44,606 nucleotides of DNA from a virus: positions 1 through 44,606 of IMG/VR virus record IMGVR_UViG_3300009159_000113; one strand, given 5' to 3'. A program made the position numbers and the translations under genes. This document shows, one piece after another, positions 231 to 8,788 of this stretch (the stretch's first letter is position 1; every line of letters starts with the position of its first letter). The notes beneath the pieces are model-generated. The model had not been told where the DNA came from, searched no databases, and saw nothing but the letters and a program-made list of their open reading frames with translations.

Positions 231-494
231 TTTTCCACAAGTAAGTGTATATCCTGTGGAAAAAGTGTGTTAATTGTGTGATACTCAGTAAATGCCTCTG
301 GTTGTTGTGATCTTGGCCCACATTCTATCACAAACTCCCAGAAATGTCAAGACCCCAGAGACACTGCAAATACTGGCACATGCCCCCTTGACAGTATAGC
401 AAATGACAGTGAATATGCCTGTGGAAAACTATTACAAACCTGTGGAAAAACCTGTGGAAAACTATAGTAAATTGTGGAAAAATAGTTTTCCACA
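231..494. repeat. Seven perfect TTTTCCACA (DnaA-box-like) 9-mers
   Basis: Exact copies lie at 231-239 (+), 255-263 (-), 420-428 (-), 441-449 (-), 453-461 (-), 473-481 (-) and 486-494 (+). The first two form an inverted pair with 15 bp between them. The last five fall within 75 bp. Five of the seven are in the TGTGGAAAA orientation. A given 9-mer is expected well under once per strand in 264 bp, so this is not chance. The word equals the cyanobacterial variant of the DnaA box as I recall it. An unrelated phage regulator is the main alternative. Confidence 0.7.
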
Positions 495-507
495 GGTATA
501 TTCAGTG
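407..507. repeat. 27-bp imperfect inverted repeat around the DnaA-box-like cluster
   Basis: Arm 407-433 and arm 481-507 are reverse complements at 25 of 27 positions. Each arm contains one TTTTCCACA box plus about nine bases on either side. The 47 bp between the arms carry three further boxes. The arms are too far apart for a simple terminator, so a large cruciform or a symmetric protein-binding array fits better. This is a direct observation; the function is inferred. Confidence 0.65.
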
Positions 508-534: not shown

Positions 535-606
535 AATGTGCAGTCCTGTGAGTATTCTTATCAAAACACAGTGAGCTATACCTATTGACAAATGTGCAGT
601 CCTGTG
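535..606 (+). repeat. 16-bp perfect direct repeat, one copy in a promoter spacer
   Basis: AATGTGCAGTCCTGTG occurs at 535-550 and again at 591-606, 56 bp apart start to start. The second copy fills positions 1-16 of the 17-bp spacer between the -35 and -10 boxes of the promoter at 585-613. That placement suggests an operator for a repressor or activator, with the upstream copy as an auxiliary site. Confidence 0.55.
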
Positions 607-613
607 TTATAGT
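585..613 (+). promoter_or_regulatory. Sigma70-like early promoter
   Basis: TTGACA (585-590), a 17-bp spacer and TATAGT (608-613) give a near-consensus host-type promoter pointing right. Transcription would start near 620, about 100 bases before the first small gene at 720. It is the obvious driver of the 720-2165 gene chain, whose genes overlap and share the transcript until the terminator at 2279. Confidence 0.65.
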
Positions 614-1047: not shown

Positions 1048-1355
1048 ACTGGGTTGAGTATTGGGTAGGACACTGTTGGATGCGTGGATGGCAGAGTATT
1101 GGAGGTGCCTTTAGGATATGGGGAGATTTAATGGGAGGGAATTATAAGGATTATGATTTGCCTAGAACAGTAGAAGACCCAGAAGCAGAATGTATTGAAT
1201 GGTTCTGGTGGTCATTAGGAGAAGATACTGTATATTCAAAAGAATTTCTTGAGTATCTAATGCAGATAGCAGAAGATGTAAAGAGTGGTAAGGTAAAGAC
1301 TTATTCAATGGATGAAGTTATGGAGGATTTAAAAGGAGGTAGCAATGACATTTGA
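1044..1355 (+). CDS. Tryptophan-rich hypothetical protein (103 aa)
   Basis: ATG at 1044 overlaps the preceding stop (ATGA); a GAGGA ribosome-site-like run lies just upstream. The protein is unusually rich in tryptophan: eight Trp in 103 residues, clustered at 3-26 (NWVEYWVG..CWMRGWQSIGG..IWGD) and at 51-54 (EWFWW). It has an acidic, helical C-terminus. There are no transmembrane stretches of sufficient length and no known domain that I can name. Its last codons carry a strong AAAAGGAGG ribosome site for the next gene and overlap it by 11 bp, so the two are probably translated together. Function unknown. Confidence 0.65.
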   Translation: MNWVEYWVGHCWMRGWQSIGGAFRIWGDLMGGNYKDYDLPRTVEDPEAECIEWFWWSLGEDTVYSKEFLEYLMQIAEDVKSGKVKTYSMDEVMEDLKGGSNDI

Positions 1356-2049
1356 TACTGTTTTTATTTCTGATGTTCATTTAGGAACAGATAGGTGTAA
1401 TACTGAGAAATTCTTAAAGTTTCTTAAAGGGATTAAGACTAAGAAACTTGTGATGGTTGGAGATATCATAGACATCTATTGTATGGAAAAGTATGGAACA
1501 CGATGGAAACGTGAACATACTGAATGTGTTCATGCACTTTTAGATTTGTGTAAAAAGGGTACTGAAGTTGTTTATGTTCTTGGCAATCATGAGGGAGTAG
1601 TTAGAAGGTATTGTAATTTTGAGCACAAGAACTTTATGATGTGCGATGAGTATGTTCATAAGGATAATCAAGGTAATAAGTATCTTTGCACGCATGGCGA
1701 TAAGCACTCTGAGTATTCTTCTGGTTCATGGAAGCAATTAATGTTTAACTGGGGATATGAGTTTATTACGCCATTGAGTCTTTTTTTAAATCGTTATCTT
1801 AGGTTCTCTTTAGTTCATTTTTTAAAGAATACTATGCGTGGTAAAGGATATATTGATAAGTATGAGAATGATATTGTTGGATATTGCATTCAACAAGATA
1901 AGAAGTATGATGGTATTATCTGTGGACACATTCATCATGCAAACATTCGTAAATTTGGTAAGATGATGTATATGTGTTGTGGAGATTTTGTCGATACCTG
2001 TTCTGCTATTTTAGAAAAGAATGGCGTTTATAGTTTGGAGAAATACTAA
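1345..2049 (+). CDS. Calcineurin-like metallophosphoesterase (LpxH/UDP-2,3-diacylglucosamine hydrolase-like)
   Basis: All metal-binding motifs of the calcineurin-like superfamily are present in order: SDVHLG (D10, H12), GD (D40), GNHE (N81, H82), THGD (H117) and GHIHHA (H195, H197). The order and the length (234 aa) resemble LpxH-type phosphatases, which cleave UDP-2,3-diacylglucosamine in lipid A synthesis with two Mn ions. Substrate preference cannot be read from the sequence. A strong GGAGG ribosome site inside the previous gene sits 7 bp before the ATG. In this setting, close to a cytidylyltransferase, it may act on host envelope or nucleotide metabolites. It could also be a general nucleotide or phosphodiester phosphatase. 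The fold assignment is secure; the LpxH label is tentative. Confidence 0.88.
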   Translation: MTFDTVFISDVHLGTDRCNTEKFLKFLKGIKTKKLVMVGDIIDIYCMEKYGTRWKREHTECVHALLDLCKKGTEVVYVLGNHEGVVRRYCNFEHKNFMMCDEYVHKDNQGNKYLCTHGDKHSEYSSGSWKQLMFNWGYEFITPLSLFLNRYLRFSLVHFLKNTMRGKGYIDKYENDIVGYCIQQDKKYDGIICGHIHHANIRKFGKMMYMCCGDFVDTCSAILEKNGVYSLEKY

Positions 2050-8383: not shown

Positions 8384-8788
8384 GTGCCTTTAGAGAATAT
8401 ATCAAGAGGATTTAAAGATATCAGCTTGTCTTTTCTAAGGCATCCTGTGACAAATGATATTGGCACCCTTACTAATGAAGATGCAATTAAGCGTTCTGTA
8501 GTTAATTTGGTGAGAACAAGAGTTGGAGAAAGATTCTTCAACTCTCTTTTAGGGTCTAATGTAGAAAATTACTTTTTTGAACTTGCAGATAGTGGTATTG
8601 TAGACCCATTACAAGAAGAAATTAAAACTGTTATTTCAAACTTTGAACCAAGAGTTACTGTTAGGGCAGTTGATGTTGCAGTATATCCTGAAGATAATGA
8701 ACTAGATGTCACTATAACTTATGATATTGTTGGACTTGCAGTTCCAACTCAGGCAATCAATTTCATATTACAACCAACTAGATACTAA
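8384..8788 (+). CDS. gp25: Baseplate wedge subunit gp25 (gpW/gp25 family)
   Basis: 134 aa against 132 in T4. The family pattern is clear: EDAIKRSVVNLVRTRVGERFF, then ELADSG..DPLQEEIKTVI.NFEPRV (helix and FEPR motif), followed by strands DNELDVTITYDIVG and QAINFIL. T4 gp25 is a wedge component that links to gp6 and resembles part of a tail lysozyme-related fold; it acts in baseplate assembly. The start is GTG at 8384, with AAGG right in front of it. The TAA overlaps the gp6 ATG by one base, so the two are coupled. Function by homology is secure. Confidence 0.92.
   Translation: MPLENISRGFKDISLSFLRHPVTNDIGTLTNEDAIKRSVVNLVRTRVGERFFNSLLGSNVENYFFELADSGIVDPLQEEIKTVISNFEPRVTVRAVDVAVYPEDNELDVTITYDIVGLAVPTQAINFILQPTRY

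Follow-up and report, generated by a model that had tools for sequence, protein, structure and literature searches.

T4-like cyanophages are among the most abundant viruses of the ocean, and how their DNA replication starts is not established. The origin oriR of phage P1 contains boxes for the host DnaA protein together with iterons, and is used with the phage's own RepA. In bacteriophage T4, an origin consists of a promoter and an A+T-rich unwinding tract and is opened by means of a transcript, according to a review that does not mention DnaA (PMC3016281); the annotated oriF of T4 lies between uvsW and gene 25. DnaA boxes are part of an Ori-Finder origin prediction for Pseudomonas phage PseuGes_254 (PMC11512268). 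For Syn9, a member of the same phage group as the locus described here, a single theta origin was predicted earlier, which agrees with one main origin; the review that cites it gives neither its place nor DnaA boxes (PMC2984593). A sequence-only reading of the DNA analysed below had considered a host-DnaA-dependent origin, or titration of host DnaA, new for T4-like cyanophages. The prediction for Syn9 takes away part of this novelty, although DnaA goes unmentioned in that review. A search of the open-access literature for cyanophage DnaA or DnaA boxes found nothing relevant in the hits that were inspected, which is weak evidence of absence.

Results

The DNA analysed (hereafter the window) is a linear IMG/VR virus fragment of 44,606 bases. 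PHROGs matches bear out its assignment to a T4-like cyanophage: gp25 (at 8384) and gp6 (at 8788) are found downstream of the box cluster, and further T4-like genes of the window encode terminase, sheath, tube, portal, protease and scaffold. An exact-match scan confirmed seven perfect copies of the 9-mer TTTTCCACA within 264 bp (231–494), five of them in 75 bp (420–494). The whole window holds nine exact copies versus 1.14 expected from dinucleotide shuffles, so about 0.007 would be expected in 264 bp. Boxes with one mismatch are not in excess over the whole window (31 versus 26 expected); the signal of the cluster is its count of exact boxes.

All seven boxes are exact matches. Box 1 (231–239, plus strand) and box 2 (255–263, minus strand) form an inverted pair with a start-to-start distance of 24 bp, which belongs to the helically phased class described below. 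In the second group, box 3 (420–428), box 4 (441–449), box 5 (453–461) and box 6 (473–481) are on the minus strand, boxes 4 and 5 standing in tandem at 12 bp, and box 7 (486–494) is on the plus strand. The cluster is indeed intergenic (171–719), preceded by a short ORF with its end at 170 and followed by small ORFs that begin at 720. The inverted repeat that had been described as a 27-bp repeat flanking the five boxes is real, with arms of 30 nt (404–433 and 481–510, 90% complementary); the first and the last of the five boxes lie inside the arms, so the five are not all flanked. As single-stranded DNA, the inverted-repeat region gives a folding z of -8.5.

Some other features of the neighbourhood were observed. 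Beside the cluster, 510–606 contains a 41-nt direct repeat (510–550 and 566–606, 76% identical) with 'AATGTGCAGTCCTGTG', which is kept in two relatives of the window, L010 and L018. A nucleotidyltransferase gene (phrog_7878) that starts at 2334 is immediately preceded by a wcaG RNA (2173–2270; Rfam RF01761, 98.8 bits), and a stretch similar to this RNA is found in S-SKS1 and DSL-LC03 at a sugar dehydratase/epimerase gene. In L010, several small ORFs between 1202 and 3495 start with the same read-through leader (translated NWSLYLPK..PCYHT); a repeated sequence therefore precedes those genes.

The cyanobacterial DnaA box is TTTTCCACA, as seen from binding by DnaA domain IV and from footprints (PMC4674748; PMC3480399). 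A close tandem pair of this 9-mer is present in 196 of 242 Cyanobacteriia genomes, with almost none for a reversed control, and clusters of it adjoin dnaN in two of these genomes. Picocyanobacterial oriC loci were identified by their flanking genes thrC and dnaN, a gene context that agrees with PMC2836286, and have boxes between the two genes. Three of them (L757, L763 and L765) contain exact boxes, one to three each, along with degenerate copies, some others have degenerate boxes only, and TTATCCACA is used in place of TTTTCCACA by some cyanobacteria. The literature and the dnaN-adjacent and thrC–dnaN clusters thus bear out the earlier identification of the 9-mer. The phage boxes thereby match the box of the likely hosts while being nearer to its consensus than the hosts' own. 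The phage locus resembles cyanobacterial oriC in having TTTTCCACA in both orientations at closely phased spacing; unlike oriC, it lies in a small-ORF region without adjoining dnaN or thrC, and is built from an inverted-pair unit with an opposing promoter. The DNA-binding domain of DnaA (Bac_DnaA_C) was not found in any of the 17 phage records searched, and a phage-encoded DnaA was rejected on this ground. The locus also differs from P1 oriR, as neither iterons nor a phage DnaA-type initiator were found.

A search of related cyanophages found the cluster at the same place when it was anchored on gene 25 (8384–8788, plus strand; baseplate wedge; phrog_261, E=1e-49), which itself lies outside the element. 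In seven of the eight whole Kyanoviridae isolate genomes scanned (DSL-LC03, DSL-LC02, S-CREM1, Syn9, S-PM2, S-CAM3 and S-SM2), the densest box cluster is 3.0–7.7 kb upstream of gene 25; that of the window is 7.9 kb upstream. It lies at 19.2 kb in S-PM2 and at 52.6 kb in Syn9. When 300 shuffled 9-mers were put through the same rule, a mean of 0.007 genomes, and at most one genome, had a cluster at that place. P-SSM7 and S-RIM8 also have a cluster upstream of gene 25. The number of exact boxes per cluster ranges from two to seven, with only two in Syn9, S-SM2 and DSL-LC02. Among 46 non-redundant gp6 loci on metagenomic virus contigs, we counted 61 boxes in 189 kb at 3–10 kb upstream of gp6 versus six in 501 kb elsewhere (one in 138 kb at 0–3 kb upstream and five in 363 kb downstream), a 27-fold enrichment. 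The cluster is thus not private to the window; it is a conserved locus of the Kyanoviridae.

The cluster is absent from 8 of 17 isolates: S-CRM01, S-SRM01, S-SKS1, P-SSM2, Sf-FS3, S-B43, S-CAM9 and ACG-2014f, of which S-CAM9 and ACG-2014f were examined in the roughly 11 kb that precede gene 25 and the others whole. All genomes above 200 kb that were examined (S-SRM01, S-SKS1, P-SSM2, Sf-FS3, S-B43 and ACG-2014f) are without it, and most of those of 168–198 kb have it; the large ones may start replication differently. The phosphatase gene of the window (1345–2049) was tried as an anchor and dropped in favour of gene 25, because 77 of 80 relatives had no clustered boxes upstream of it. The three that keep the cluster are L009, L010 and L018, and in the alignment of this group 62 of 63 box-column positions are identical to L018, versus 437 of 486 for the remainder. 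The densest cluster seen, 12 exact copies of TTTTCCACA within 400 bp, is in L204 (from 9576), a virus contig that is rich in AT.

Comparison of the elements showed that they are built on an inverted pair, TTTTCCACA...TGTGGAAAA. In a set that had been chosen irrespective of boxes, the spacing from start to start is 12–14 bp (6 pairs), 21–25 bp (13 pairs) or 34 bp (1 pair), and is therefore helically phased, the classes being one turn apart (Rayleigh R=0.88 at 10.5 bp, p<5e-5); a wider set has the same gaps. The tandem 12-bp spacing of set B was itself selected by the search pattern, and was excluded as evidence. A low-stability AT-rich tract, a candidate unwinding element, often accompanies the pair. 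In the window it is the least stable 40-mer of 150–720 (189–228, directly left of the box 1–2 pair), and is not exceptional for so AT-rich a window (P=0.28). The tract falls among the least stable 0.1–1.5% of 40-mers in DSL-LC03, Syn9, S-PM2 and DSL-LC02, and is unremarkable in S-CREM1 and S-CAM3, as in the window. It lies to the right of the pair in many isolates and to the left in S-SM2 and the window; as a signal, the tract is statistically modest.

Further right of the pair and AT tract, an alignment of 20 elements revealed a common core, TTGTnnTCTTAGCnCGCA followed by GTCAA. In the window the core TTGTnnTCTTAGCnCGCA..CTATCA reads GTTGTTGTGATCTTGGCCCACATTCTATCACA (301–332) and coincides with the -10/start region of a predicted minus-strand promoter. 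On the opposite strand, the core reads TTGAC-N15-TG.TA in most elements, which corresponds to a sigma70-like promoter of the extended -10 type that has a 17-bp spacer and points at the boxes; Syn9 and DSL-LC02 depart from the strict pattern. Strict matches on the opposite strand occur within 320 nt after 26 of 193 oriented pairs versus about 1.9 expected, each palindromic pair being read in both directions. The window copy (322–350, minus strand; TTGACA-17-TAGAAT with a TG extension, 11/12 matches) would fire left at boxes 1–2 from a predicted start near 315, with the AT tract beyond the pair as seen from it. A promoter scan found another, TTGACA-17-TATAGT with a TG extension (585–613, plus strand), which would fire right, away from the boxes and towards the small ORFs at 720 onward. 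These are the two best promoters of the region scan, and they flank the second box group divergently. The leftward promoter faces no conserved gene, because in the isolates the genes annotated on that side of the boxes are small ORFs that read from the opposite strand.

Two other readings of these motifs were rejected. The box palindromes do not suit intrinsic terminators, because the pairs read T-stem-A, the wrong polarity; a terminator scan gave one weak terminator-like match, at boxes 6–7 on the minus strand, versus 0.6 expected. A conserved hairpin in the core is disfavoured as well, because its stems looked variable by eye and the promoter spacing fits the alignment better. The DnaA-trio motif (PMC8287927) is too degenerate to be informative with this small number of sequences.

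GC and GC3 skew show no flip at the locus of the kind seen at bacterial oriC, the right side being if anything C-richer, in a test that is confounded by nearly all genes lying on one strand. A skew switch is missing also at many real phage origins and at some cyanobacterial ones. With no origin-type flip, skew does not support an origin and counts among the points against one. GC3-skew profiles of the seven isolates, started at the cluster, are similar to each other: C-rich over the structural genes and nearer zero or G-rich half-way round.

Position in the genome invites comparison with T4. The gene uvsW is upstream of the cluster in the five isolates on which its placement rests (Syn9, S-CREM1, S-CAM3, S-SM2 and P-SSM7), whereas in S-PM2 it is about 22 kb from the cluster; the sequences of the window, L009, L010 and L018 end short of uvsW. 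In those five isolates the locus thus shares with T4 oriF, or ori(uvsY), the uvsW-to-25 interval, and its predicted promoter and candidate A+T-rich tract may correspond to the promoter and unwinding tract of the T4 origin. It differs in that T4 oriF has a MotA middle promoter and no role for DnaA, whereas the cyanophage locus has DnaA boxes of the host type and a predicted sigma70-like promoter with an extended -10 and a TTGACA -35 element.

Discussion

Taken together, these results make it likely that the locus is bound by host DnaA. Such a site would most probably serve to start phage replication, its opening or priming being assisted by transcripts of the opposing promoter, a function that we favour with modest confidence. 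Judging from the motifs and their placement, an origin is the most likely reading given the position of the locus, the helical phasing and the direction of the promoter; we infer from these that DnaA binds the locus during infection and that the site is opened, primed and active as an origin. In this model, the phased box pair or pairs would be occupied by host DnaA, and RNA polymerase would fire from the opposite-strand promoter at the boxes, in many relatives across the AT-rich side. This opposing transcription may contribute to duplex opening or leave an R-loop that acts as primer. Loading of the phage replisome would come next, and recombination-dependent replication would take over later, as in T4. 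The locus cannot be the only type of origin, since 8 of 17 isolates and most of the phosphatase-anchored relatives are without the cluster. A further point against an origin is that some cyanobacteria can replicate their DNA without DnaA (PMC7198777).

The main rival is a transcription switch with no origin, in which DnaA bound at the pairs would repress or time the left and right promoters and so couple early phage transcription to the DnaA state of the host. Bacterial DnaA does regulate transcription at boxes outside oriC (PMC7198777), the association of promoter and pair is widespread, and the two strongest promoters of the region diverge around the second box group. We nevertheless consider a switch unlikely, as no conserved gene is evident that the leftward promoter could control, the small ORFs on its far side read the opposite way, and the conserved place near T4 oriF would be left unexplained.

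The boxes might instead act as a sink for host DnaA during phage multiplication, thereby halting host initiation. At titration sites of the datA kind, high-capacity binding of DnaA lowers host initiation, and the seven perfect boxes of the window outnumber the exact ones at the three picocyanobacterial oriC loci mentioned above, where the rest are degenerate. Titration is less likely than a switch, and we regard it as improbable: the range of two to seven exact boxes per cluster is mildly against it, Syn9, S-SM2 and DSL-LC02 having only two, and a sponge needs no fixed place, helical phasing or promoter. That several phages have two or three boxes with precise spacing and layout makes this reading weaker. 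It is similarly doubtful that the 9-mer is an operator of a phage-encoded regulator that matches the DnaA box by coincidence, since, while dimeric regulators typically have helically phased inverted pairs as their sites, the 9-mer is exactly identical to the host box, and the mixture of tandem and inverted arrangements with varied spacing suits DnaA better than a fixed dimer operator.

Returning to replication, we tentatively propose, as somewhat short of probable, that a large part of the T4-like cyanophages use a hybrid origin at the place that the DnaA-free R-loop origin oriF occupies in T4, with host DnaA as the recruiting factor and an opposing promoter to open it. If this is true, phage DNA synthesis would be tied to the replication licence of the host, and one mechanism of initiation would have been exchanged for another while its place in the genome was conserved. 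A T4-type phage could then replace or supplement R-loop initiation by recruiting the host initiator. The presence of a fixed DnaA-box locus in well-studied isolates (Syn9, S-PM2 and P-SSM7) makes the question directly testable, and the locus could connect phage replication with the host cell cycle. Many T4-like viruses of picocyanobacteria have a DnaA-box cluster and a facing promoter at one fixed place, in what looks like a host-dependent start of replication without a counterpart in classic T4.
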